From NCBI RefSeq assembly GCF_021049285.1, contig NZ_CP088017.1, forward strand, positions 1,313,380 through 1,377,379: a stretch of DNA of 64,000 nt. Reading direction: 5' to 3'. Position 1 is the stretch's first letter, and each line of letters opens with the position of its first letter. Below are positions 6,978 through 22,760 of the stretch, in pieces. The position numbers were made by a program, and so were the translations under genes. The DNA comes from Ruania halotolerans (lineage in GTDB: Bacteria > Actinomycetota > Actinomycetes > Actinomycetales > Beutenbergiaceae). Under the pieces are notes generated by a model that worked only from the letters and a program-made list of their open reading frames with translations, did no database searches and was not told the DNA's origin.

Positions 6978-7011
6978 TTGTGCATCCACTCATCAAGTGA
7001 TGTGATGACTT
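6978..7011 (+). promoter_or_regulatory. Predicted promoter with overlapping GntR operator upstream of the DUF4185-type gene
   Basis: A TTGTGC at 6978-6983 and TGTGAT at 7001-7006 are 17 bases apart. The 17-bp pseudo-palindrome at 6995-7011 fits AAGTnATnnnATnACT(T/C) and lies over the -10 element and predicted start point. The same pattern occurs at 8322-8338 on the GntR promoter, so I infer it is that regulator's operator. Outer arms ATCAAGT/ACTTGAT (6992-7014) are perfectly inverted. Confidence 0.62.
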
Positions 7012-7054: not shown

Positions 7055-8206
7055 ATGAGACCCTCCCGCGTCCTTGCAAGCGCGACCGCCGGCGCAACTG
7101 CGCTGGTTCTGCTCAGCGCCGCCCCGTCCATGGCGGGCAACGACCGGCCCTCATCCCGGTGTGATCTGCTCGATGCAGAGATCTCCACAACTGCACAGGA
7201 GCACGAGGACCTGACCGCACAATTCGGTGCCTACGGCGATAGCGGTCAAGGCTGGACCGGTGGAGATTCCACCTTCTCGATACCGCTGCAGGACGGCCGC
7301 AATGTGTGGGTCTTCTCGGACACCTTCTTGGGTCCAGTGAACTCTGACGGCACTCGCCCGTTGGAGACGCCCTTCCTCAACAACAGCTTCGTTGTGCAGG
7401 ACACGGATGGCCTGAATACGGTCACCGGTGGCACGCCCGCCGAGCCCGCCTCGCTGATCGAACCTCCCGAAGACGGTGGCTGGTACTGGGTGGGCGATGG
7501 GGTCCAGGCCTCGGACGGAACCGTCCAACTCACGGCGCTGCAGTTCTGGTACGGCGGCGGAGGAGCATTCGACTTCGGGTGGGAGAGTAACCACCTGGCC
7601 CGGTTCGATGCCGACACTCTCGAGTTGCTCGCGCTGACCGACCTTCCCTCAGAGTCCGGAGTTCAATGGGCGAGCTGGATCGAACCGGCCGGAAAGTACA
7701 CCTACATCTACGGCGTCGAAGACGGCGGTGCAGAGAAGTTCATGCACGTCGCCCGGGTGCGGGGTACCGATCTCACGGCGCGCTGGCAGTTCTGGACCGG
7801 GAACAGGTGGAGCTGGGATGAGACGCGCACTACCCGGCTGATGGATGGAGTGGCGAACGAGTACAGCGTCTCCGCACTCGCCGACGGCTACCTGTTGATC
7901 ACCCAGGACACTCACGAGATCTTCAGTCGCAACATCGAGGCGTACGTGGCGTGCTCCCCGACCGGTCCATTCCATCCGGTCGGCACCGTCTATGAGATGC
8001 CCGAGGTTGGCGCCGGTGGGAGTTACGGGAACCCGAACATCTTCGCGTACAACGCGCATGAGCATCCTGAGTTGCGGGAGGTGACTGAGAGCGGGATGAC
8101 GACGGTGCTGACCTACAACGTGAACAGCTTCGATTCCGCCGACTTGTACGACGACGTCACCATCTACCGGCCTCGCTTCGTCGAGCTCGAGATCGACATC
8201 GGCTGA
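7055..8206 (+). CDS. Secreted DUF4185/DUF5005-type beta-propeller protein
   Basis: A 383-residue exported protein. Residues 1-27 form a Sec signal peptide (basic start, hydrophobic 'GATALVLLSAAPSMAG'). The mature part has the family hallmark 'VWVFSDTFLG' near residue 88 and repeated Trp/Gly-rich blades ('GGWYWVGDGVQ', 'WASWIEP', 'YTYIYGVEDGG'), as expected for a five-bladed propeller related to glycoside-hydrolase folds. The activity of the family is not settled. The ATG at 7055 has GAAGGAG upstream; the open frame from 7010 includes the operator region and is not used. It shares a predicted operator with the downstream GntR gene, so it probably acts outside the cell on the polymer whose fragments the ABC importer takes up. 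That link is inference. Confidence 0.75.
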   Translation: MRPSRVLASATAGATALVLLSAAPSMAGNDRPSSRCDLLDAEISTTAQEHEDLTAQFGAYGDSGQGWTGGDSTFSIPLQDGRNVWVFSDTFLGPVNSDGTRPLETPFLNNSFVVQDTDGLNTVTGGTPAEPASLIEPPEDGGWYWVGDGVQASDGTVQLTALQFWYGGGGAFDFGWESNHLARFDADTLELLALTDLPSESGVQWASWIEPAGKYTYIYGVEDGGAEKFMHVARVRGTDLTARWQFWTGNRWSWDETRTTRLMDGVANEYSVSALADGYLLITQDTHEIFSRNIEAYVACSPTGPFHPVGTVYEMPEVGAGGSYGNPNIFAYNAHEHPELREVTESGMTTVLTYNVNSFDSADLYDDVTIYRPRFVELEIDIG

Positions 8207-8304: not shown

Positions 8305-8338
8305 TTGCACCCGATGAGATCAAGTGATTAGATCACTC
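8305..8338 (+). promoter_or_regulatory. Predicted gntR promoter with overlapping operator; leaderless start
   Basis: TTGCAC (8305-8310) is 17 bases from TTAGAT (8328-8333), which is 6 bases before the ATG at 8340. The 17-bp pseudo-palindrome 8322-8338 (core AGTGAT-tag-ATCACT is a perfect inversion) covers the -10 and start point, the layout of an autorepressed leaderless gene. It matches the site at 6995-7011. Confidence 0.65.
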
Positions 8339-8339
8339 T

Positions 8340-9035
8340 ATGTCTTCCGTTCCGTCGTTGCGACGCAACCTCTCCGGTGACCTCGCTCAGGCCGTGGTCG
8401 CACTGCTCGAACAGGAGGGACTGCGCACCGGCGATGCACTGGAGTCACTGAAGGCGCTCGCCGCTCGCTTCGACGTCGCCGTCCCGACGATGCGCGAGGC
8501 GTTGCGCCGCCTCGAAGGCCTCGGGGTGGTGGACTTCCGGCACGGGTCGGGTATCTATGTGGGCGCCAATGCCGGACGGCGGGTACTCGCCAATCCGGTG
8601 CAGTCCCGTCCGGATGCTGACCAGCTTGTTGAACTCCTCGAGGCACGTCGGCAGATCGAGCCTTCGCTGGCCATGTTGGCCGCGCAGGTGCGCGACCCTG
8701 CCGGGATCGCCGTGATGGATCAGACCCTGAGCCGCGCGAAGGATCAGATCGTCTCCGGCGATGAGGAACTCTGGCTGACCAACATTGACTTCCACCGCGC
8801 CGTGGCGGCGGCCGGCGGAAATGGCGTGCTGGTGGAGATCCTCGATTCGATCGTGCTCATCCACGCCGAGGATCAACGAGAGATTCTCCGTCTGCACGGT
8901 GACGCTGACGACGACTATGCCGAGCACGCACACATCGCCGAGTGCGTGCGCCGCGGCGACCCCCTGGCGGCGCGAGACGCCGCATTTGCCCACCTCGACC
9001 ACGTGGTCGAAGTGATCCGGGCCCGGCGCCGCTGA
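8340..9035 (+). CDS. GntR-family transcriptional regulator (FadR/FCD type)
   Basis: A 231-residue repressor-type regulator. The N-terminal winged helix (residues about 12-78) contains 'SLKALAARFDVAVPTMREALRRLEGLGVVD' (in part), followed by the wing 'FRHGSGIYVG'. Residues about 95-225 are the all-helical FCD ligand domain, with His and Asp residues ('FHRAVAAAGG', 'HAHIAECV') in the metal-binding positions of the family. FCD regulators often respond to sugar acids or their metabolites, which fits the dehydratase gene nearby. No ribosome site is needed because the predicted -10 is 6 bases upstream of the ATG. It heads the ABC-importer/catabolic cluster and probably represses it, itself and the secreted DUF4185-type gene through the paired operators. 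Confidence 0.88.
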   Translation: MSSVPSLRRNLSGDLAQAVVALLEQEGLRTGDALESLKALAARFDVAVPTMREALRRLEGLGVVDFRHGSGIYVGANAGRRVLANPVQSRPDADQLVELLEARRQIEPSLAMLAAQVRDPAGIAVMDQTLSRAKDQIVSGDEELWLTNIDFHRAVAAAGGNGVLVEILDSIVLIHAEDQREILRLHGDADDDYAEHAHIAECVRRGDPLAARDAAFAHLDHVVEVIRARRR

Positions 9036-9059
9036 GCCCCAGCAGCTGTACTCACCCGA

Positions 9060-9077
9060 CCGGCGGACTCCCGCCGG
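9060..9077. other. Hairpin between gntR and the binding-protein gene
   Basis: Perfect 7-bp stem CCGGCGG/CCGCCGG with a 4-base loop. No T-run follows, so it is more likely an mRNA-stabilising or attenuating structure that lets the binding protein be made in excess over the regulator than a full terminator. Confidence 0.5.
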
Positions 9078-9113
9078 GCCGGAACTGTTCCTTCAACACG
9101 AAGAGGTGTCCCG

Positions 9114-10373
9114 ATGAGAACCAAGCTTGCCCTCGCCACTGCGGCGTTGACCGGAGCTGCCCTCGCTCTCACTGCCTGCTCCGGCGACGGCGGCAGTGCA
9201 GGTGGAGACAGTGAGAGCACCACGATCGGCTTCTTCACCAACAAGGCCGCGTGGGAACCGTCATTCGACGATATGAACACGGCCTCCGAGGACGACGGGT
9301 TCACGTTGGACTTCACCGGGTACTCCGATCAGGCGGCGTATGACGCCTTCGTCAAGCAGGCCTTCCGCACGAACGAGAAGCCCGATCTATTCACCTGGCA
9401 GACCGGGCCCTCTCTCGGCGAGATCGTGGAGGCCGGCATGGTCGCCCCGACGACCGAGATCTGGGAACAGGCGATCGCGGACGGCGACGTCGAGGAAGGC
9501 CTCGCCGCCGACTACACCTTCGACGGTGAGCAGTACTGCGTGCCCCTGAACCACGTCTACTGGGTGATGTACTACAACAAGGACATCTACGCCGAGTACG
9601 ACCTCGAGGTGCCGACCACCTGGGACCAGCTGATGGGCAACGCTCAGGTCCTGGTGGATAACGGTGTGGTCCCGTTCCACCAGATGAACATCATCTTCGA
9701 GTTCGTGTGGTTCCAGGCGATCCTGCTCGGCCTCGACCCCCAGGCCTATGACGGCCTCGCGGACGGTTCCACGAGCTACACGGACCCGAGCGTGGTGGAG
9801 GCCATGACCATCTGGCACGACATGCAATCGGACGGGTACTTCGTGGATCCGGGCGTGACGACCGATCCGCAGACCCAGCTGCAGACCGGTGAGGTGGCGA
9901 TGATGTACTTCGGGACCTTCTTGACCGGCCAGCTCGGCGACATCGACATGGTCTCCAACGAGGACTACGGGATCTTCCCGATGCCGAACGTCAACCCAGA
10001 GCTCGAGGAGCGCCAGGTCGTCGTCGAGACGGGACCACTGTGTGTGGGAGCGGGCAGCGCCAACGAGGACGCTGCTCTGGAGTACAGCGCCTGGTGGATG
10101 GGGGACGAGGCCCAGTCCGCCTGGGCCGAGTCCCGCGGTGACCTCTCCTTCAACCCCGACGCGACGGTCGCCGATCCGGCACTCGCGGAGATCACTGCCG
10201 AGGTCTCCGGCGAGGGCAACTCGATCCACACCCGGTACCTCGAGGCCACGCCCGTCCCCATCTACACGGTCGCAGCCGAGGAGTTCGGTGCCTTTGTCAC
10301 CAACAATGACGACCCGATGGGGCACTTGGAGGCGATCCAGGCCGAGGCAGATGCCTACTGGGACGAGCAGTGA
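9114..10373 (+). CDS. ABC transporter sugar-binding lipoprotein (CUT1 type)
   Basis: A 419-residue extracellular solute-binding lipoprotein. The signal ends in lipobox 'LTAC' with Cys22 as the lipidated residue, followed by a Gly/Ser linker. The mature sequence is a type-2 periplasmic-binding fold of the family that binds oligosaccharides ('TNKAAWEPSF', 'PDLFTWQTGPSLGEIVEAG', 'YCVPLNHVYWVMYYNKDIY'). Aromatic residues abound, as in carbohydrate pockets. It is followed by two permease genes, with a GTGA overlap at its stop, so all three form one transcript. The ligand cannot be told; the downstream enzymes point to an acetylated or acidic oligosaccharide (inference). Confidence 0.92.
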   Translation: MRTKLALATAALTGAALALTACSGDGGSAGGDSESTTIGFFTNKAAWEPSFDDMNTASEDDGFTLDFTGYSDQAAYDAFVKQAFRTNEKPDLFTWQTGPSLGEIVEAGMVAPTTEIWEQAIADGDVEEGLAADYTFDGEQYCVPLNHVYWVMYYNKDIYAEYDLEVPTTWDQLMGNAQVLVDNGVVPFHQMNIIFEFVWFQAILLGLDPQAYDGLADGSTSYTDPSVVEAMTIWHDMQSDGYFVDPGVTTDPQTQLQTGEVAMMYFGTFLTGQLGDIDMVSNEDYGIFPMPNVNPELEERQVVVETGPLCVGAGSANEDAALEYSAWWMGDEAQSAWAESRGDLSFNPDATVADPALAEITAEVSGEGNSIHTRYLEATPVPIYTVAAEEFGAFVTNNDDPMGHLEAIQAEADAYWDEQ

Positions 10374-11290
10374 CACTCCCCACTCCCCGGCAGGCCGATC
10401 TGCTCCCGGCGGCACGGCCGACCCGGAACCAGTACTGGCTTTCCAGTGCCGGCTTCGTGGCACCGGCCGTGCTGCTGGTGGCCGTGGTCCTCTACCTGCC
10501 GTTCATCTGGACCACCTGGATCAGCTTCACCGAGTACAACGGTCTCGGTGACCCGGTCTGGGTGGGTCTGGAGAACTACCGGGAGATGTTCGCCGATCCC
10601 GAGTTCCTCACCTCGATCAGGAACACCCTCTTCTGGGTGGTCGGCACGATCGCGCTTCCCGTGGGCCTGGGCCTGCTCATCGCCACGCTCAGCCACGGGA
10701 TGCCGAACGCCACCGTGTTCCGGCTTCCGTTCCTCATTCCGTACGCGGTCTCCGGAGTCGCGGTCGGAGTCATCTGGTCGTTCGTCCTGCAGACCAACGG
10801 AGCCCTCAGTCAGGCACTGGCATTCCTCGGGCTGCCGGGTTCGGAACTGCGTTGGTTGCTCGATGATCCGCTGAACACCTTCGTGATGATCGGAGCCGCC
10901 ACCTGGCAGGGGGCCGGTGTGAACGCGCTGCTGTTCGGGATCGGATTGCAGTCCATCCCGAAGGAGCCGATCGAGGCGGCCCGCGTGGACGGTGCGAGCG
11001 GATTCACGCTGTTCCGCACGATGACCTGGCCGATGCTCGCGCCGTTGACCACGGTGGTGGTGGGCCTGGCGATCGTCGGCAGCTTGAAGACCTTCGACGT
11101 CATTTGGGGCATGACGAAAGGTGGTCCGGGCAGGGTCTCGGAGACCCTCGCGCTGACCATGTTCAAGGAGACCTTCGTGAACAACGCCTACGGTCTCGGC
11201 GCCGCCGTCGCCCTATTCCTCACCGTGGTGACCGTGCTGGCCTCGATCATCTACCTGCGCCGTCAGCTCGCTGACTCGCGGTCGATCTGA
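10370..11290 (+). CDS. Sugar ABC transporter permease, MalF-like
   Basis: This 306-residue inner-membrane protein has six predicted transmembrane helices, the first at about residues 24-47 ('SAGFVAPAVLLVAVVLYLPFIW' region). The cytoplasmic EAA loop reads 'EAARVDGASGFTLFRTMTWPML', here split by the usual EAA-x3-G spacing that docks the ATPase. The GTG start overlaps the binding-protein stop in a GTGA. It pairs with the next permease to form the CUT1 channel. No ATPase gene is present in the locus, so a shared MsmK/UgpC-type ATPase from elsewhere is expected, as is common in actinobacteria. Confidence 0.92.
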   Translation: MTLPTPRQADLLPAARPTRNQYWLSSAGFVAPAVLLVAVVLYLPFIWTTWISFTEYNGLGDPVWVGLENYREMFADPEFLTSIRNTLFWVVGTIALPVGLGLLIATLSHGMPNATVFRLPFLIPYAVSGVAVGVIWSFVLQTNGALSQALAFLGLPGSELRWLLDDPLNTFVMIGAATWQGAGVNALLFGIGLQSIPKEPIEAARVDGASGFTLFRTMTWPMLAPLTTVVVGLAIVGSLKTFDVIWGMTKGGPGRVSETLALTMFKETFVNNAYGLGAAVALFLTVVTVLASIIYLRRQLADSRSI

Positions 11291-11300
11291 GGAGGTGGAC

Positions 11301-12110
11301 ATGCTCATCCGACGCATCGTGCTTGGCGCACTAGGCCTGCTCTGGCTGGTGCCGGTGTACCTGCTGCTCGCGAACGCTTCCAAACTGCCTGCCGAGTTCG
11401 GCGACTACGGTCTCTGGGAACCCGGCACGGTGACCGGCCTCTGGGCCAACCTGGGCGAGGCATGGGATCGCGGGAAGCTCTCCGGTGGTCTGCTCTCCAC
11501 CGCGGTCTACGCACTCGTCTCGCCGTTGATCGCGGTGGTGGTTGGCGCAGCGGCCGGGTTCTCCATCGTCGCGCTGCGGCTGCGGCATGGGTTCGCCTGG
11601 TTCGTGGTGATCTTCGCCAGTTCGATCTTCCCGCTGCAGATGATCCTGATGCCGCTGTTCGTGGGATATGCCGAGACGGGGTTGTTCAACACCAGGCTCG
11701 GGATGATCCTGGTGTACACCGTGATCGCGGTGCCGTTCTCGGCGTTCGTGCTGCGCAACTTCTTCACCGGGATCGCTCACCAGGTGTTCGAGGCGGCTGT
11801 GGTGGACGGAGCATCCACGCGGCGCATCTTCGCCCAGATCTACATCCCGATGGCGATGCCGGCGCTCATCGCGGTCTTCATCCTGCAGGCGACCTTCATC
11901 TGGAACGATCTGCTGCTCGGCCTCACCCTCACCCAGTCCGCTGAGGTGCGCCCGATCGTCACGGCACTGTCGGCGTTGCAGAGCACCTACGGCGGTTCGG
12001 CCATGTCCACGGTGCTCGCGGGTGGTCTGCTGGTCTCACTGCCCACAGTGGTGCTGTTCCTCGCCACCCAACGGGTGTTCACCCGTGGCCTTTCGCTCGG
12101 CCAGTTCTAG
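11301..12110 (+). CDS. Sugar ABC transporter permease, MalG-like
   Basis: The second permease is 269 residues long with about six membrane helices. It carries the EAA loop 'EAAVVDGASTRRIFAQIYIP' and ends 'LFLATQRVFTRGLSLGQF', a common ending for MalG-type subunits ('G...G..KG' type). The ATG at 11301 follows GGAGG by 5 bases; the GTG at 11295 overlaps that ribosome site and is rejected. The stop TAG runs straight into GAGG, the ribosome site of the next gene, so expression with the dehydrogenase is coupled. Confidence 0.92.
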   Translation: MLIRRIVLGALGLLWLVPVYLLLANASKLPAEFGDYGLWEPGTVTGLWANLGEAWDRGKLSGGLLSTAVYALVSPLIAVVVGAAAGFSIVALRLRHGFAWFVVIFASSIFPLQMILMPLFVGYAETGLFNTRLGMILVYTVIAVPFSAFVLRNFFTGIAHQVFEAAVVDGASTRRIFAQIYIPMAMPALIAVFILQATFIWNDLLLGLTLTQSAEVRPIVTALSALQSTYGGSAMSTVLAGGLLVSLPTVVLFLATQRVFTRGLSLGQF

Positions 12111-12119
12111 GAGGTATTC

Positions 12120-12968
12120 GTGTCCGAATCAACGTCCGACGGCGGACCGCACCAGGCCGTGGTGGTCACCGGAGCCGCAGCCGGTATCGGTGCCGGTGCC
12201 GTGCGCCAGCAGGTGGCGCAGGACCGGCGCGTGTACGCCATCGACGTGGACGCTGACGGTCTGCGCGCGTTGGTCAACGAGGCACCTGAGCAGGTGGTGG
12301 CGGTCCCTGCGGACGTGGCGGACGAATCCGCCGTGGAGGCTGCGTTCGCCATGATCGCCGACGACGCAGCGCGGGCCGGGGTCGGTCTCGGGTCGCTGGT
12401 CTGTGCCGCGGGAGTCCAGACGTACGGCACAGTCGACGGCACCGATATGGCCACCTACGACAAAGTGATGGGCGTCAACGTGCGCGGTGCGTTCCTGGCC
12501 GCTCATTTCACGATTCCGCTGATCCGCGCGACCGGCCGGGGCGGCAGCATCGTGCTCGTTTCCTCAGTGCAGGCCTATGTGGCCCAGCGAGGAGTCGCCG
12601 CCTATGCCGCCACCAAGGGCGCGCTTCTCTCCCTGACCCGTGCGATGGCGGTGGACCACGCGGGCGAGAGGATCCGGGTGAACGCCGTCTGCCCCGGCTC
12701 CGTGGACACCCCGATGCTGCGCTGGGCGGCCGGCCTGCACATCGGCGGCGACGGACCACCAGATCCCGCAGCTGTGGACACCGTCGTGGCCGAATGGGGA
12801 CGTTCCCATCCGTTGGGCCGGGTGGCCAGCACCGACGAGGTCGCCGATGTGATCGGCTACCTGTTGAGTGAGCGTGCCTCCTTTGTGACGGGAGCAGACC
12901 TGAAGGTGGACGGCGGACTCACGGCGGGCAACGCCGTCGCGCTGCCGAACGAGGGGAGTGGGCAGTGA
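12120..12968 (+). CDS. SDR-family NAD(P)-dependent oxidoreductase
   Basis: This 282-residue classical short-chain dehydrogenase shows the cofactor motif '[11 protein letters not shown]' near residues 18-28 and the acidic 'IDVD' after beta-2, which favours NAD. The 'CAAGVQ' (NNAG-like) region, the catalytic Ser in 'SSVQAYV' and 'YAATK' give the Ser-Tyr-Lys set. Next to a lactonase and a sugar-acid dehydratase, the likely role is oxidation of an aldose to its lactone (a sugar 1-dehydrogenase), but a keto/hydroxy interconversion of a sugar acid is equally possible by fold. The GTG start sits right after AGGAGGT; the stop overlaps the dehydratase GTG by four bases. Confidence 0.88.
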
Positions 12969-14248
12969 GCACCAGCGGACTGAGTATTGCGGCGATCCGG
13001 GCCACCACGGTGACCGTGCCGCTGGAGGCGCCGCTGCGGCACTCCAACGGCGCCCACTGGGGCCGCTTCGTGCGCACCATCGTGGAGGTGGAGGCCAGTA
13101 ACGGCCTGATCGGGCTCGGAGAGCTCGGCGGGGGAGGTCAGGGCGCCGAGGCGGCTGTGCACGCACTCACCCCCTACCTAGTGGGGCACGACCCGGCGAA
13201 CACCGAGGCGCTGCGGTTCATGATCGCCAACCCCACCGCGAGCCTGTACAACAACCGCACGCAACTGCTCGCCGCGGTCGAGTTCGCCTGTCTGGACCTG
13301 GTCGGTCAGCACGTCGGCCTACCGGTGCATGCGCTGCTCGGCGGGAAGGTGCGCGATGAGGTGGAGTTCGCCTCCTACCTGTTCTACCGCTACGCGGGCC
13401 CGGACGGGACCGGTGAGATCCGTACCGCTGATGACCTCGTTGCCGAGGCGCGCCACCTGAAGGACGCGTACGGATTCCGCGTGCACAAACTCAAGGGCGG
13501 GGTCTTCGCCACCGACCACGAGCTGGAGTGCTACGAGGCGCTCGCCGAGGCGATGGGGCCGACCGACCGGTTGCGCTACGACCCGAACGGTGCGCTCAGC
13601 GTGGAGGAATCGATCCGGTTCGCCCGCGCCATCGAGGATCTCCCGAACGACTACCTGGAGGATCCGGTCTACTCGATGACCGGGATGCGCCGGGTACGGG
13701 AGAACACCCCGATCCCGCTGGCCACGAACACGGTGGTGGTCAATGCCGAGCAGCTCGCAGCGAACGTGCTGCACCCGGCCGCCGACGTGATCTTGCTCGA
13801 CACCACCTTCTGGGGCGGGATCCGGCAGTGCCTGAAGGCCGGTGCCATCTGCGAAGCCTTCTCGCTCGGGGTGGCGGTGCATTCCTCCGGTGAGCTGGGC
13901 ATCCAGTTGGCCACGATGTTGCATCTGGGTGCTGCCCTTCCGAATCTGACCTTCGCTGCCGACGCGCACTACCACCACCTCACCGATGACGTTGTCGAAG
14001 GCGGCCTGCGCCCCTATGTGGACGGGAAGATGGCCGTGCCCACCGAACCCGGCCTCGGAGTGCGGCTGGACCGCGACAAGGTGGCCGAGTACGCCGAGCT
14101 GTACCGCGAGCTGGGCGGCTACCCCTATGACCGCGATCCCGGCCGGCCGGACTGGTACCCGCTGCTTCCGAATACGTCGTTCGCGGACCACACCGACGGC
14201 AGGTTGCCGGAGCCGCTCGCGGCCGAATACGCCCGACGGCGGCGCTGA
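12965..14248 (+). CDS. Enolase-superfamily sugar-acid dehydratase, glucarate-dehydratase-like
   Basis: At 427 residues it is the size of glucarate dehydratase. Catalytic positions are visible: the KxK pair Lys175/Lys177 in 'HKLKGG', metal ligands Asp206 ('YDPNGA'), Glu232 ('LEDPV') and Asn255 ('LATNTVV'), and the Asp279/His306 dyad ('DTTFWGG', 'VHSSGELG'). An Asn as third ligand is characteristic of the glucarate/galactarate dehydratase subgroup rather than mandelate racemase. The product would be a 2-keto-3-deoxy sugar acid. The true substrate may be a mono-acid such as an aldonate, because lactonase and dehydrogenase genes flank it. It is coupled at both ends by overlaps (GTGA; TGATG at the esterase). 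Confidence 0.88.
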
Positions 14249-15219
14249 TGCCCCGGTTCGACCTCCCGCTGGAGGAGCTACGCACCTATCGCAACCCCCG
14301 CCCCGTGCCATCGGGACTGGCCGCGTACTGGGAGCGCACCCTCGACGAGGCCCGCGGCGCCGCGACATCTGGGGTGCGTTGCGTCCCGGCCGAGACCGGG
14401 CTCGTCACCGTGGACGCCTACGACGTGACCTTCCCAGGTTTTGGCGGAGATGAGATCAAGGCGTGGTGGCTCCTGCCGCGCGGCGCCACGTCCGAGCTGC
14501 CCGTGGTGATCGAACTGCTCGGCTATGGCGGTGGCAGGGGCCGCGTGCATGAACGCCTGCATTGGGCCTCGCACGGCTTCGCCCAGCTTGTGGTGGACAG
14601 TCGCGGGCAGGGAAGCATCTGGAACGCCGGTGCCACACCTGATCCCCATGGCTCCGGTCCGGCCGGACCCGGGATGCTCACCCGGGGTGTGGACCACCCC
14701 GACCACCTGTACTACCGGCGGCTGATCACCGACGTCGTCCGTGCCGTGGACGCCGTCGGGCACCTGCCGGGTGCGGATCCTCGGCGAGTGGCCACCGTCG
14801 GGCACAGCCAGGGTGGCGCGCTCGCCCTGGCGGCCGCGGCGCTGCACTCAGGCGTGGCCGCGACGGCGGCCCGCGCACCGTTCCTGTGCGGGATCGCCCG
14901 GGCCGTCGAGCTGACCGATGCCCCGCCGTACGGCGAGCTGGCCGGATACCTCGCGGTGCACCGGACCCAGGCCGAGAACGTCCTCGCCGTGCTCGATCAC
15001 GTGGACGTCTCGCACCTGGCACCCCAGATCGCCTGCCCCACCTGGATCTCGGTGGGACTGACCGACGTGACCTGTCCGCCGTCGGGAATCTTCGGTGCCA
15101 TCAACGCCATGCCGCGACGCCCTGAACAGGTGCGGGTGTGGCCGTGGAACGGCCACGAGGCCGGCGGGCCCGACGACGATGCGCACCTGGCCGACTGGCT
15201 CACCGACACCCTGACCTGA
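14248..15219 (+). CDS. Acetylxylan-esterase-like alpha/beta hydrolase (CE7/AXE1 family)
   Basis: A 323-residue esterase of the AXE1/cephalosporin-C-deacetylase family. The triad is visible: Ser187 in 'GHSQGG', Asp273 in 'GLTDVTCPPS' and His303 in 'NGHEAGG'. The N-terminal 'FDLPLEELRTYRNP' and 'YWERTLDEAR' are family signatures. There is no signal peptide, as is normal for CE7, so it removes acetyl groups from small imported oligosaccharides in the cytoplasm. It shares a one-base overlap with the dehydratase gene and lies 3 bases before the glycosidase-like gene, so deacetylation probably prepares the substrate for that enzyme. Confidence 0.9.
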   Translation: MPRFDLPLEELRTYRNPRPVPSGLAAYWERTLDEARGAATSGVRCVPAETGLVTVDAYDVTFPGFGGDEIKAWWLLPRGATSELPVVIELLGYGGGRGRVHERLHWASHGFAQLVVDSRGQGSIWNAGATPDPHGSGPAGPGMLTRGVDHPDHLYYRRLITDVVRAVDAVGHLPGADPRRVATVGHSQGGALALAAAALHSGVAATAARAPFLCGIARAVELTDAPPYGELAGYLAVHRTQAENVLAVLDHVDVSHLAPQIACPTWISVGLTDVTCPPSGIFGAINAMPRRPEQVRVWPWNGHEAGGPDDDAHLADWLTDTLT

Positions 15220-15222
15220 GAG

Positions 15223-17337
15223 ATGCGAGAACCGATGAACCCCCTCATCCCGACCTGCGCCGACCTCGCCTCGGACGAGGTGACCGATGCCTTCGACGAC
15301 ATGGTCAACCCGCCCGGTCTGACGAACCACTGGGCGACAGCTCAGGTCGATCACGACGTGCTCGCCGTCCGGAGCCTGAACGTGCCACCGGTCTCCCAGG
15401 GCGATTCGATCTCCGGCCAGCTCTACCTCGGAGGGCGGCTGGCCCGCTCCTACGGCCAGCCCGTGCACACCCGGTGGCGGCCGGACCGGGTGGACCGGCG
15501 CACCACCATCGACGGGTGGGACCTGCGCACGGAGACGGTGTGCCCGCCCGGAGAACCCGGCGTCCTGGTACGCCTGAGCGTCACCAACACCGAAGGGCCG
15601 CGCACCCTGCGCCTCGGCGTGTGGTTGACGTCCACGGTGACCCGGTCGCCGCAGGCGTGGCTGGCCGCCGAGCCCCCGCAGGCAGAGAACACCCTGACCC
15701 GCGAGGGGATCCGGGTGACCGGGACCGACCAGCGCGCCTGGTCCGTCCAGGACCTGCACCCACCGGCCGGGGCTACAGCGCTGCCCGGTTCTGCGCGCGT
15801 GGTCGAGGCCGAGGTCGAGGTCGGTGCGGGGGAGACCTGCACATGGACGTATCTGCACGCCGTGGCCGGCTCGGCCGAGGAAGCGACGGCAGCAGCGGAC
15901 CGGATCGGCGGTGTGGCCCCGACCGCAGTGGCCGCCAGTGAGGAGACGTGGAACCGCTCGTTGGCCGCCCTGTTCGACCCCGACGACCCAGAGTTCGCCG
16001 GCAGCCTGCCGGTGCTGGACACCAGCGACACGAACCTGCGCACGCTCTACTGGTGGGGCGCCGTCGGGGTGCTCTGGTTCCGCCGGGACAACCCGGCCTC
16101 GGTGCACGGGCGCACCTACGACACCCTGATGCCGCGGTACTGGCAGACCACCACCTTCATCTGGGATTACGCCCTCTCTTCGCACGTGCATGCCCAACTC
16201 GAACCGGCGGTGATGCGCCGGCAGATCGCTCACTGGGTGGGCCTGGACATCACCCAGCACTTCGGCACGGAATGGCTCACCGGCGGGCCGGTCGGCTACT
16301 GGTACTCGGTGAATCACTACGCGATGACCCGCCTGGTGCGCGACTACATCGCCTTCACCGGCGACTGGGCGTTCCTCGCCGAGGAGCTCACCACCCCCGA
16401 CGGCGTCACGCGTCCGCTGCGCGAGCACCTGCGTGCCTGGGCGCGGCACTGGCACAGCCTGCGGTCGGAAAGCGGGCTGGCCGACTATGGCGAGATCGAC
16501 AATCTGCTCGAGTGTGTCTCCTCCTACGTGCACGAAGTGGCGAGTCTGAACGCGGCGAACGTGTGGTGCCTGCGCATCGCGGCCCGGTTCGCCGAGCTGG
16601 ACGGTGAGGCGAGTGAGGCCGCGGACCTGCGCGCCGAGGCCGAGGAGCTGGTGAGGCTCGTCCGGGAGCTCTACATCCCGGGGGCGGGCCACTTCTATGC
16701 CCGCCAGCCCGACGGCACCCTGGTCCCCACCAAGCACTGCTACGACTTCGCCACCGTCGGCACCACCATCGCCGAGGACCTCCCGGTCGAGGTGCGCGAG
16801 GAGATGGTGCGCTTCTTCGACTCCGAACTACGGACGCCGTCGTGGATGCGGGCGCTCTCCGCCCATGATCCCGATGCCGGGTACTCGCTGCGTGCCGACC
16901 ACCAGTGGAATGGGGCCTACCCGGCCTGGCCGCCGGACTCGGCGCGGGCCGCGATCGCGCTCGGGCACCCCGAGGTGGTCGCGGAGTGGCTGCCCGGTCT
17001 GGCGCGGACGGCCAACCAGGGACCGCCCGGGCAGGCGCACTTCGTGGAGGAGGCCGCGCAGCCGGTGAACGGGGGAGCGCGCAAGACCCCGCCACAGTTC
17101 CCGTACCTGATCGACTGGTCCTGCTCCTCGGCAGGGTCGTTCGTGGAGCTGGTGATCAGCGGGATCTTCGGCGTGGACGTGGGCCTCGACGGTACCGTCA
17201 CCGCCGACGGGTGGGTCGGCCGGCTCGACCCGGATGCGACGTTGCGCGGTCTGCGGGTGGGCGGCCAGTGTTATGACATCACAGGCGGCCAGGTGGTCCG
17301 CTCTACCGACGACCAGAAGGACGACACACCCTCATGA
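15223..17337 (+). CDS. Six-hairpin (alpha/alpha6 barrel) glycosidase-like protein
   Basis: A 704-residue protein without a signal peptide. An N-terminal beta-sandwich (about 1-240) precedes a helical barrel with Trp-rich motifs: 'TLYWWGAVGVLWFRR', 'FIWDYALSSHVHAQLEP', 'YWYSVNHYAM', and 'DHQWNGAYPAWPPDSARAA', a layout seen in GH37/GH63-like and related six-hairpin enzymes. Candidate acids are the Asp in 'IWDY' and 'DYGEIDNLLE'. I cannot place it in a numbered family, so the linkage it cuts is unknown. ATG 15223 and ATG 15235 are both possible; the latter has GCGAGA five bases upstream. It is coupled to the DUF4432 gene by overlap. Confidence 0.72.
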   Translation: MREPMNPLIPTCADLASDEVTDAFDDMVNPPGLTNHWATAQVDHDVLAVRSLNVPPVSQGDSISGQLYLGGRLARSYGQPVHTRWRPDRVDRRTTIDGWDLRTETVCPPGEPGVLVRLSVTNTEGPRTLRLGVWLTSTVTRSPQAWLAAEPPQAENTLTREGIRVTGTDQRAWSVQDLHPPAGATALPGSARVVEAEVEVGAGETCTWTYLHAVAGSAEEATAAADRIGGVAPTAVAASEETWNRSLAALFDPDDPEFAGSLPVLDTSDTNLRTLYWWGAVGVLWFRRDNPASVHGRTYDTLMPRYWQTTTFIWDYALSSHVHAQLEPAVMRRQIAHWVGLDITQHFGTEWLTGGPVGYWYSVNHYAMTRLVRDYIAFTGDWAFLAEELTTPDGVTRPLREHLRAWARHWHSLRSESGLADYGEIDNLLECVSSYVHEVASLNAANVWCLRIAARFAELDGEASEAADLRAEAEELVRLVRELYIPGAGHFYARQPDGTLVPTKHCYDFATVGTTIAEDLPVEVREEMVRFFDSELRTPSWMRALSAHDPDAGYSLRADHQWNGAYPAWPPDSARAAIALGHPEVVAEWLPGLARTANQGPPGQAHFVEEAAQPVNGGARKTPPQFPYLIDWSCSSAGSFVELVISGIFGVDVGLDGTVTADGWVGRLDPDATLRGLRVGGQCYDITGGQVVRSTDDQKDDTPS

Positions 17338-18389
17338 CGCAGGCACAGGTGAGCGAGGTGGATCTCGGCAAGGGCTGGACGGGGCTCCGGCTGAGCAGTG
17401 CGGAGCTGGAAGTGACGTTGATCCCGCAGCAGGGCTGCGACGTGCATGCCCTGGTGGATCGGCGGACCGGGGTGGACGTGTTGTGGAAGACCCCATGGGC
17501 GATGCCCCCGGCCGGGACGGGCCGCTGGAACGCCGAGGACGAGGCGGAGTGGCTCGAGCGATTCAGCGGCGGCTGGCAGCTGCTGTGCCCCAATGGGGGT
17601 GACGCAAGCGAGGCGCCTGGTGGCCTGACCTGGGGTTGGCATGGCGAGGCGTCCCGGATTCCGTGGCAGCTCTTCGATTCTGGAGTCGAGGCGGACGGGG
17701 CCGTCCACGCGAGGCTGCGCACCCGCCTGACCAGGGCGCCTTTGCAGATCGAACGACGGGTCGCCGTCAGGGGAGCGGTGCTCAGTATCGAGGAGTCGGT
17801 CACGAACACCAGCCCGGACCCGATCGAGATCATGTGGTCCCATCACCCGGCATTCGGTGCGCCGCTGATCGGACCCGCCACCCGGATCTACACCAGCGCG
17901 GCCACCATCACCGCCGACGCCAAGGATGCCGGTACCGATCTGGAACCTTCCGCTACGGCGGAATGGCCGCACCCCGCGCCTCGCGCGGGCCAGGAACCGG
18001 CCGACTTCTCCCGCATCCCGGAGCGCCCGCGCGCGACCCTCGCCTACCTCGGCGACTTTGCCAGCGACGGGTGGTACGCGATGGTGAACCCGGAAATCGA
18101 CCTCGGGGTCGGGCTGCGGTGGGATGCGGACCTGTTCCCGCACGCGTGGTACTGGCAGGAGCTGCGTGCCAGCGCCGGTGCGCCCTGGTGGGGCGAGGTG
18201 TACGTCACCGCGATCGAGCCGGCGTCCACGATTCCCGGGCACGGGATCGCCCATGCCAAGGCTCGCGGCGCGAACCTGGTGCGCCTGGCCGGTGGTGCCA
18301 CCCGCAGCACCACGATTGAGGCCACGACGTTCGCACCCGACGGTGAGGTGCGCCGGATCGGCCCTGCCGGCGCGGTCGAGCACGGCTGA
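17334..18389 (+). CDS. DUF4432 / aldose-1-epimerase-like protein
   Basis: A 351-residue protein with a galactose-mutarotase-type beta-supersandwich. Visible features are 'LIPQQGCDVHALVDRRTGVDVLW', shortened here to the core 'QGCDVHAL', the 'WQLLCPNGG' segment, 'WSHHPAFGAPL' with the paired His typical of the fold, and late 'PWWGEVYVTAIEP'. It may interconvert anomers so that the dehydrogenase receives the right form, or act on a carbohydrate chain end; the family is poorly characterised. Its ATG overlaps the glycosidase stop (ATGA). A 13-base gap with GAGCGAGGAAC separates it from the lactonase gene. Confidence 0.78.
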   Translation: MTQAQVSEVDLGKGWTGLRLSSAELEVTLIPQQGCDVHALVDRRTGVDVLWKTPWAMPPAGTGRWNAEDEAEWLERFSGGWQLLCPNGGDASEAPGGLTWGWHGEASRIPWQLFDSGVEADGAVHARLRTRLTRAPLQIERRVAVRGAVLSIEESVTNTSPDPIEIMWSHHPAFGAPLIGPATRIYTSAATITADAKDAGTDLEPSATAEWPHPAPRAGQEPADFSRIPERPRATLAYLGDFASDGWYAMVNPEIDLGVGLRWDADLFPHAWYWQELRASAGAPWWGEVYVTAIEPASTIPGHGIAHAKARGANLVRLAGGATRSTTIEATTFAPDGEVRRIGPAGAVEHG

Positions 18390-18402
18390 GCGAGGAACGT
18401 CG

Positions 18403-19236
18403 ATGGCTACCGTTCGCGTCTTCCACGACGGCACACTGACCGAGCCGCGCTTGGACCACCCCGAGGGGGTGGCCGTGCACCCGGACGGCAGTCTGTGGTG
18501 CGGCGGAGAGCGGGGCCAGCTGTACCGGGTGGCACCTGACGGCGGCTCTCGTGAAGTGGTGGCGTCCACCGGTGGGTTCGTACTCGGCGTGGACATCGAC
18601 GCGAACGACCTTGAGCACCCGGTGTACCTGTGTGATCTTGGCCACCGAGCGGTGTATCGGTACGCACCCTCGACCGGATTGGAGCAGGTCACCCGTGGGG
18701 GAGCGCGTCCATTCGTCACGCCGAATATGGTGCGGGCGGCGCCGTCGGGGGCGCTGTACGTGACCGACTCGAATGTGCAGGGTGAGCCGGGAGGTGGGGT
18801 GTACCGGTTTGTCCAGGCTGCACCGGGGGAGCCGTGGGCCGGTGGGCTGTGGTTCGACGAGCCGCTGAACTTCGCCAACGGCCTGGCGGTGTCGGAGGAT
18901 GAGACGTGCGTCTACGTCGTCGAGACGTTCGCTGCCCGTGTGGTGCGGATTCCGATTCTGCCCGACGGCGGCCCTGGCCCCGTGGAGGTGGTCGCCAAGA
19001 TGCCGGGGGTACTGCCCGACGGCGTCACGCTCGGCCCGGACGGGCTGTTGTACGTGGGTTGCTACGAGCCGTCCCAGGTGCTCCGGGTGGACCCGGCAAC
19101 CGGTGCGGTGAGCGTGCTGGTCGCCGATCCCACCGCACATCTGCTCTGCCATCCCACGAACGTCGCCTTTCGCGGGTGGGAGCTGTTCACCGCCAACTTG
19201 GGTCGCTGGCACTTGGCAGTGGTCGACCTCACCTGA
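18403..19236 (+). CDS. SMP-30/gluconolactonase family lactonase
   Basis: A 277-residue six-bladed propeller. The divalent-metal ligands of the family are all present: Glu21 ('HPEGVAV'), Asn108 ('TPNMV'), Asn159 ('FANGLAV') and Asp206 ('LPDGVTL'). Such enzymes open aldonolactones to aldonates, which would link the dehydrogenase (making a lactone) to the enolase-superfamily dehydratase (using the acid). The ATG at 18403 has GCGAGGAA upstream; an open frame further 5' overlaps the DUF4432 gene and is a shadow. It is the last gene of the cluster; sdhC follows after 112 bases with its own signals. Confidence 0.88.
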   Translation: MATVRVFHDGTLTEPRLDHPEGVAVHPDGSLWCGGERGQLYRVAPDGGSREVVASTGGFVLGVDIDANDLEHPVYLCDLGHRAVYRYAPSTGLEQVTRGGARPFVTPNMVRAAPSGALYVTDSNVQGEPGGGVYRFVQAAPGEPWAGGLWFDEPLNFANGLAVSEDETCVYVVETFAARVVRIPILPDGGPGPVEVVAKMPGVLPDGVTLGPDGLLYVGCYEPSQVLRVDPATGAVSVLVADPTAHLLCHPTNVAFRGWELFTANLGRWHLAVVDLT

Positions 19237-19347
19237 GTAGCCCGCTCGTAGTTTTCGTGACGGTAATCGTTCGTATCTCGGTGTTGTCACGGCGCCTCCT
19301 GCGTGCGCGGAGAACCCTCCAGAGGCGTTAAGTTAGGGCTCGTGGCA

Positions 19348-20064
19348 ATGCGAACGGTGACCTCGTCCCCCCGAACCCCGGTGTGGCGCTCGACCGTCGT
19401 CCTGAAGGTCGCGATGGCGATCAGTGGTCTCGTGCTGGTGGGCTTCTTGCTGGCCCACATGTACGGGAACCTGAAGGTCTTCGCCGGCCAGGAGGCGTTC
19501 GACGAATACGCCCACCATCTGCGCGAACTCGGTGAGCCCATGCTGCCCTACGCGGGTGCGCTGTGGCTCATTCGCATCGGGCTCCTGGCGGCGATCGGCG
19601 TCCACATCTTCTCGGCGGTGACGCTCTGGCGTCGCGCACGAGCCGCGACCGGCGGTAAGGGCGGAAGCCGGTATGCCAGCACACAGGCCAAGCGCGGCAG
19701 CCAACGGGGCTACGCCTCGTTCACCATGCGCTGGGGCGGTGTCGTGATCATCCTGTTCACGGTCTACCACCTCATGCACTTCACGTGGAACAACGTCGCG
19801 CCCGGTGGTGCCTCGGACAGCCCGTACGAGCGAGTCGTGAACGGCTTTGAGATCTGGTGGGTGGTGCTGAGCTACACGGTCGCGCTGCTCGCCGTCGGCT
19901 TCCATCTGCGCCACGGAATCTGGGCCGGCCTGGCCAGTCTCGGAGCGAACACGAGCCAGCGGCGGCGCCGTCAGCTCAATCTTCTGGCGACGGTTGTCGC
20001 TGTAGTCATCACGGTGGGTTTCCTCCTCCCGCCGTTCGGAATCTTCTTCGGATTGGTCGGCTAA
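19348..20064 (+). CDS. sdhC: Succinate dehydrogenase cytochrome b subunit
   Basis: A 238-residue membrane anchor of the one-subunit cytochrome b558 type, with about five membrane helices. It holds haem and menaquinone for SdhAB. Histidines lie in 'LLAHMYGNLKVF', 'GVHIFSAVTLW', 'YHLMHFTWNN' and 'GFHLRHGIWAGLASLG'. There is no separate sdhD, as expected for this type. The ATG at 19348 has AGGG 9 bases upstream; a GTG at 19342 lies 7 bases after a TAAGTT -10-like element and could be a leaderless start. The flavoprotein GTG follows the stop directly. Confidence 0.93.
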   Translation: MRTVTSSPRTPVWRSTVVLKVAMAISGLVLVGFLLAHMYGNLKVFAGQEAFDEYAHHLRELGEPMLPYAGALWLIRIGLLAAIGVHIFSAVTLWRRARAATGGKGGSRYASTQAKRGSQRGYASFTMRWGGVVIILFTVYHLMHFTWNNVAPGGASDSPYERVVNGFEIWWVVLSYTVALLAVGFHLRHGIWAGLASLGANTSQRRRRQLNLLATVVAVVITVGFLLPPFGIFFGLVG

Positions 20065-22013
<1,949 letters not shown>

Positions 22014-22017
<4 letters not shown>

Positions 22018-22760
22018 ACATCACCCTTCGCATCTGGCGACAGAAGAACTCCGAGACGTCTGGCGCGATGCAGACCTATCAGGTGGCCGACGTCTCCCCG
22101 GACATGTCGTTCCTGGAGATGCTGGACGTCCTCAACGAACAGCTCACCGTGGCCGGGGACGACCCGATCGCGTTCGACAGCGACTGCCGCGAGGGCATCT
22201 GCGGGATGTGCGGACTCGTCATCAATGGGCTCGCGCACGGTCCGAACGACATGGTCACCACCTGTCAGCTGCACATGCGCAGCTTCTCCGACGGAGACGT
22301 GATCGACGTCGAACCGTGGCGCGCGCAGCCGTTCACGGTAATTAAGGACCTGATCGTGGACCGGTCCTCGTTCGACCGGATCATCCAGGCGGGCGGCTAC
22401 ATCAGCGCCCCCACCGGCACCGCTCCGGACGCACACGCGGCCCCGGTGGCCAAGGCTGACGCAGACGCCGCATTCGACGCCGCCACGTGCATCGGCTGTG
22501 GTGCCTGTGTGGCCGCGTGCCCGAATGGGTCGGCCTCGTTGTTCATGGCCGCGAAGGTCGCCCACCTCGGCCTGCTTCCGCAGGGGCAGCCGGAGCGGGA
22601 TTCCCGTGCGCTGGACATGCTGGCTCAGCACGACCACGAGGGTTTCGGTGGTTGCACGCAGATCGGCGAGTGCACGGCGGCATGTCCGAAGGGCATCCAG
22701 ATCGACCTGATCTCCCGCATGCAGCGCGACGTGCTCGGCGCACTGTCACACCGCCGCTGA
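22014..22760 (+). CDS. sdhB: Succinate dehydrogenase iron-sulfur subunit
   Basis: This 248-residue subunit carries electrons from FAD to the membrane quinone site. Cluster ligands are clear: '[10 protein letters not shown]' plus a later 'TTCQLH' for the 2Fe-2S, '[15 protein letters not shown]' for the 4Fe-4S and '[15 protein letters not shown]' for the third cluster. The GTG start overlaps the sdhA stop by four bases. The 200 bases after the stop are Pro/Cys-codon-like and GC-rich and hold repeat element A (22884-22933), with no gene visible. Confidence 0.96.

Follow-up and report, generated by a model that had tools for sequence, protein, structure and literature searches.

A probable alpha-mannoside utilization locus with an oxidative, non-phosphorylative D-mannose route in Ruania halotolerans

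Which sugar does a run of ten genes in Ruania halotolerans serve, and how is that sugar broken down? The genes lie at positions 8340-19236 of a 64-kb window (the whole stretch of DNA analyzed here, with the parts of the locus on its forward strand) from a genome of 4.27 Mb, and encode a regulator, an importer, a short-chain dehydrogenase (SDR), an enolase-superfamily dehydratase, a glycosidase-like protein that we call SIXH, and three accessory enzymes. A preliminary description, made from the letters alone, read them as a system that imports an acetylated or acidic oligosaccharide, hydrolyzes it in the cytoplasm, and passes the sugar through SDR oxidation and enolase-superfamily dehydration. 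We consider that the locus probably serves alpha-mannoside utilization with an oxidative, non-phosphorylative route for D-mannose. The direct basis is the genes and their order, an operator-like site kept across relatives, the predicted folds, residue conservation, and module exchange; substrates and activities we infer. D-mannose is favored because the importer/SIXH module swaps with a mannose-phosphorylating cassette, because the dehydratase elsewhere accompanies GH38, GH92, or mannonate-step genes, and because the SDR resembles AldT of Thermoplasma.

The order GntR regulator, sugar-binding protein, two permeases, SDR, dehydratase, and SIXH recurs across many Actinomycetota, where the preliminary description had suggested looking for it, and the ten-gene grouping is therefore more than chance. 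All ten open reading frames are present and face the same direction, as had been stated, with intergenic gaps of 78, -4, 4, 9, -4, -1, 3, -4, and 13 bases in order; overlaps of 1-4 bases, which had been ascribed to most junctions, exist at four of the nine. (The GC-based caller also gave many antisense artefacts, for example cl10 and cl49, which were ignored.) Pfam agrees with the families originally named, except that SIXH has no match, and the proposed sequence of import, cytoplasmic hydrolysis, oxidation, and dehydration agrees with the recurring gene order and with the operator described below. The upstream DUF4185 gene, the two operator copies, and the identity of the sugar are additions to that first account.

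The exchange of cassettes is seen most directly around SIXH (15223-17337, 704 aa), a predicted cytoplasmic alpha-mannosidase. A search of genome contigs gave 131 relatives, and the best 80 loci, in which Ruania and Occultella are the closest named kin, were analyzed; at 1e-10, SIXH was found in 23 of 297 genomes of the order, among them 7 of the 8 listed genomes of the same genus. Thirty-eight of the 80 loci carry the dehydratase, 37 of them together with the SDR, and 38 carry a protein resembling phosphomannose isomerase (PMI-like), while the remaining four (L049, L078, L092, and L124), all interrupted by contig ends, carry neither. Dehydratase and PMI-like protein never share a locus, except in L113, which is counted among the 38 PMI loci and has a 26% enolase-family match 9 kb off. 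A plain pattern of ROK kinase plus PMI occurs in 33 of the 38 PMI loci; ROK is absent from three (L073, L099, and L121, with L099 starting inside the PMI gene), and in L077 the ROK matches reach just 30-32% and are not adjacent. The PMI-like family profile matches Bacillus subtilis ManA (1qwr) at 7e-10, and the one member scanned had no Pfam match. The protein, about 600 aa long (L096:5129-6955 and 37 further loci), is mannose-6-phosphate-isomerase-like from about residue 236, and the stretch before it is conserved as well.

On a quick SIXH tree (81 proteins, 77 labeled) the route switches at least three times, two of these switches being forced by starred branches. As one SIXH family serves either cassette, its product should be common to both, and the PMI-like partner points to mannose. 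The chemistry itself is not strictly exclusive, only dehydratase versus PMI, because two loci hold the PMI-like gene together with SDR and UxuA: in L107 an SDR (51%), UxuA, SMP-30, and DUF4432 (34%) come after the phosphorylating locus, and in L073 SDR and UxuA lie within the same 12 kb, where the genes for a type I PMI and SIXH share one base.

The predicted D-mannonate dehydratase (12965-14248, Pfam MR_MLE) is informative where SIXH is not its partner. Of 396 genomes of the phylum, 6 have relatives at 1e-130, as do 23 of 394 genomes of the class, the own genome being in both sets; 13 neighborhoods were examined. GH38 and GH92 are alpha-mannosidase families. A GH38 gene adjoins the dehydratase in L214 (45.4 bits) and L202 (50.6 bits; cut-off 25), in both cases downstream of a sugar-binding protein and permeases in the position of SIXH, and L162 combines dehydratase and SDR with a D-mannose-isomerase-like gene (419 bits, below the cut-off of 600) and GH92; these partners come from three genomes. 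SDR and dehydratase are also adjacent in L208, L209, and L210, where single BLAST queries found no SIXH or mannosidase. In L203, from a genome of the same class, a SIXH paralogue (45%) stands beside a dehydratase paralogue (68%) and SMP-30 (51%) (9108-13583), and the importer of the window was not matched within the 20 kb examined.

The SDR (12120-12968, Pfam SDR), a predicted D-mannose (aldohexose) 1-dehydrogenase, has 3vtz, 2dtd, and 2zk7 as its best PDB matches over nearly its whole length. It is akin by sequence to the AldT-type mannose dehydrogenase, with Gln at the Glu84 position. Relatives at 1e-50 occupy 27 places in 25 of 394 class genomes, and we examined ten neighborhoods, eight outside the main group and two controls. 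Five of the eight also hold the dehydratase in that locus (L159, extended as L202; L161, together with L214; L162; L164; and L165, the last with a GH1 gene nearby); L163 has a UxuA-like match (38%) about 4 kb away, and no partner was found in L158 and L160.

The surrounding genes are more variable. The 38 oxidizing loci include, within the flanks examined, the CE7 acetyl esterase in 12, SMP-30 in 6, and DUF4432 in 8, so that lactonase, DUF4432, and esterase are optional. The full set of enzymes that had been proposed as a pathway is thus not essential. In the window, CE7 (14248-15219; AXE1, 273.6 bits) has the triad S187/D273/H303 and no signal peptide that could be seen by eye; DUF4432 (17334-18389, assigned by Pfam) is possibly an aldose mutarotase, and phmmer against PDB gave nothing credible for it; the SMP-30 family protein (18403-19236, Pfam SMP-30/SGL) is a predicted mannono-lactonase with E21, N108, N159, and D206 counted from the ATG at 18403. 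The residue positions first given for both enzymes are correct. A GDSL esterase occurs in 28 of the 38 phosphorylating loci, and with CE7 in 12 of 38 oxidizing loci this makes an acetylated glycan plausible, whereas the alternative of an acidic one finds no support; the imported alpha-mannosides are probably acetylated. The importer itself consists of a sugar-binding lipoprotein (9114-10373, Pfam SBP_bac_1, LTAC lipobox judged by eye) and two ABC sugar permeases (10370-11290 and 11295-12110, both Pfam BPD_transp_1). Some Ruania relatives have a second set of binding protein and two permeases (29-48% identity), placed either ahead of CE7 or behind SIXH (L025:5014-8038, L028:2232-5304, and L030:3128-6300). 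In five Glycomyces loci a divergent GH35 gene lies upstream of a LacI regulator (assigned by Pfam for L102 and by BLAST for L114, L117, L119, and L122).

Could the dehydratase simply be an ordinary glucarate or aldarate dehydratase adjoining an unrelated sugar operon? Its best NCBIfam match is TIGR03247 (D-glucarate dehydratase), and the glucarate-dehydratase residues noted in the preliminary description are present (K175, K177, D206, N208, E232, N255, D279, and H306): the KxK motif, the metal-site Asp/Glu/Asn, and the His-Asp pair, which we take to be the catalytic residues of Escherichia coli GudD, are kept in all 39 aligned rows. However, the score is 160.2 bits against a required 828.7, and the positions of GudD T103, N341, and R422 carry L, S, and Y in every one of the 39 rows, with the R422 stretch aligned poorly. 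The dehydratase accompanies the SDR in 37 of the 80 loci, and several of its relatives found elsewhere have mannose or mannonate genes as neighbors; a plain glucarate dehydratase, which the first account had named as its own refuting case, is hardly credible. Another alternative is a uronate route: mannonate would come from the glucuronate of an acidic oligosaccharide and be used by the dehydratase, with the SDR serving as fructuronate reductase (D-mannonate oxidoreductase). The SDR does stand beside UxuA in L107 and L073, the own genome has UxaC, and in L211 the operon that holds the dehydratase (62%) also encodes UxaE, UxaC, a D-mannonate oxidoreductase scoring 375 bits (cut-off 281), a KDG (2-keto-3-deoxygluconate)-kinase-like protein scoring 194 bits (cut-off 440), and an aldolase of the DHDPS family; L211 is a glucuronate operon with the dehydratase at the mannonate step. 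Yet the L211 oxidoreductase is just 33% identical to the SDR of the window, for which the best NCBIfam model is an aldose dehydrogenase (PRK06398, 209 bits, under the cut-off of 341) and none of the 25 best among 218 NCBIfam matches is D-mannonate oxidoreductase. The SMP-30, DUF4432, GH38, and ROK plus PMI partners also suit an aldose, the 80 loci not having been searched for a uronate isomerase, and we regard the uronate route as highly improbable.

Two further readings replace the sugar. If it were L-rhamnose (6-deoxy-L-mannose), SIXH would be a GH78-like alpha-L-rhamnosidase, and the SDR, SMP-30, and dehydratase would form an oxidative rhamnose route; we consider this very unlikely. The predicted model of SIXH has a beta-domain and an (alpha/alpha)6 glycosidase fold, in keeping with the six-hairpin type first proposed, and the same architecture is found in GH78 rhamnosidases and in GH94 phosphorylases, although identity in structural alignments is 10-16% and SIXH has no Pfam or NCBIfam match. 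Its best PDB profile match has an E value of 0.0011 with A1 and 0.0098 with A3 (A3 without a convincing single stretch), and Foldseek with VIA-align singled out no one glycosidase family; SIXH may represent an unnamed family. In the other reading the locus degrades D-arabinan, with the secreted DUF4185 protein encoded upstream as an endo-D-arabinanase and imported D-arabinose oxidized to arabinonate. That protein shares with the GH183 (DUF4185) endo-D-arabinanases EndoMA1 (PMC10509167) and DgGH4185 (PMC10115798) its fold and a pair of Asp spaced 18 residues apart, but identity is 18% by structural alignment and its Pfam DUF4185 score of 37.8 is just under the gathering score of 39.5. According to PMC10509167, a Microbacterium D-arabinan cluster likewise has an ABC importer alongside GH183 genes, but it employs GH172 and GH116, and its pathway is drawn as leading to ribulose-5-phosphate. 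GH172 and GH116 were unmatched among the 18 window proteins scanned, and the PMI-like, GH38, and GH92 partners suit a hexose. For that reason we dropped D-arabinan degradation as the main interpretation, and give it little likelihood; a mannose-capped arabinan is possible as the polymer.

Some relatives of the dehydratase have other contexts. Those of L204-L207 and L212 (62-67%) form a sister clade without SDR neighbors, which probably belongs to a different sugar-acid route; of the two loci scanned, L204 and L205, both have a confirmed Ldh_2 dehydrogenase and L205 an HpcH aldolase as well. The own genome has about five other enolase-superfamily places, three of which score at least as high to ManD as the dehydratase of the window (85.5 bits, cut-off 550 not reached), and our confidence is lowered because these genes could serve mannonate. 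UxuA was found in none of the 11 dehydratase-bearing genomes tested, the own genome included and one being 79% complete. In the own genome, with no UxuA anywhere and no ManD over the cut-off, UxaC (555 bits, cut-off 387) is adjoined by a gene resembling fructuronate reductase (272 bits, cut-off 603; L220:6987-9835), and the mannonate step could fall to the dehydratase of the window or to another enolase-superfamily gene. A PMI gene is also present elsewhere, as is an adjacent PfkB kinase/KDPG (2-keto-3-deoxy-6-phosphogluconate) aldolase pair, presumably linked to the operon.

How far the system extends upstream is indicated by the operator-like sites. The palindrome AGTGATTAGATCACT (8323-8337), found by reading the sequence and by a palindrome scan, directly precedes the gene for the GntR/FCD regulator (8340-9035, Pfam GntR+FCD) and is likely its operator; its 13-base core occurs once in the window against 0.03 expected. 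A pattern search of the own genome with up to one mismatch gave four places, two of them inside the locus, against two places for the reversed-pattern control. The second of these sites, AGTGATGTGATGACT (6996-7010, one mismatch), lies directly upstream of the gene for the predicted secreted DUF4185/GH183-like glycosidase (7055-8206; ATG 7055 was taken as the start, not TTG 7010 of the ORF list), whose signal sequence was judged by eye and which shows DUF4185/DUF5005 similarity. All 37 oxidizing loci with a binding-protein match, scanned from 400 bases before their first gene as far as the binding protein, contain a best 17-base site with 0-4 mismatches versus a shuffled mean best of 6.4-7.2, where the 17-base form was partly defined on the same relatives and the control ignores kinship among loci. 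The site precedes gntR; in loci that begin with DUF4185 (Kribbella, Salinispora) it lies ahead of the DUF4185 gene or at its start. A GntR operator consensus, T.GT...AC.A, had no match in the intergenic stretches scanned. Since operator-like sites precede both, we read the DUF4185 gene and the operon as one regulon, the two probably sharing an operator. A DUF4185 match is present in 39 of 39 rows at E up to 0.001, and homologues lie within the flanks examined of 27 of 38 oxidizing and 35 of 38 phosphorylating loci. Downstream, the next genes, sdhCAB (19303-22760), look like another function.

A route for D-mannose can be drawn from these parts. GntR would repress from AGTGATTAGATCACT until an inducer binds, a sign of regulation that we infer, and the secreted GH183-like enzyme would shorten a mannose-containing glycan, whose oligosaccharides the binding protein and two permeases would take up. 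In the cytoplasm CE7 would strip acetyl groups, SIXH would free D-mannose, DUF4432 may interconvert its anomers, and the SDR would convert D-mannose to D-mannono-lactone. SMP-30 would accelerate ring opening to mannonate, which can also be spontaneous, the enolase-superfamily enzyme would convert D-mannonate to KDG, and a KDG-kinase-like protein and KDPG aldolase encoded elsewhere would complete the route. An oxidative mannose route with AldT, ManD, and KDG aldolase is described for Thermoplasma acidophilum in PMC6901390, and the same route is predicted in Natronoglomus mannanivorans, with AldT called mannose-specific, in PMC10963439. Common to the Thermoplasma route and to that predicted here from genes are an SDR mannose dehydrogenase, opening of mannonolactone, and conversion of mannonate to KDG. 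In contrast, the route proposed here is bacterial, has a GudD-like dehydratase and not ManD, is predicted to continue through a KDG-kinase-like protein and KDPG aldolase, and is coupled to an ABC importer, SIXH, and a GH183-like enzyme. In a literature search with most subscription journals outside its coverage, we recognized no paper describing this pathway in Actinomycetota.

A broader proposal is more tentative, and we place it a little short of an even chance: that the dehydratase represents a third type of D-mannonate dehydratase, as yet unnamed, replacing UxuA/ManD in many Actinomycetota, that SIXH founds a new alpha-mannosidase family, and that one import-hydrolysis module has been repeatedly coupled to an oxidative or a phosphorylative mannose cassette. 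If the route is as proposed, phosphorylation-free mannose breakdown would extend to many Actinomycetota, and a likely function would be at hand for the dehydratase group, whose closest solved relatives, 3vdg and 4it1, bear just the names of probable or putative glucarate dehydratases, along with a candidate new glycosidase family. It would also suggest how mannonate is handled in genomes that have UxaC but lack UxuA, that of R. halotolerans included. Two cassettes exchanged naturally behind one importer would offer a clean test case of pathway replacement.

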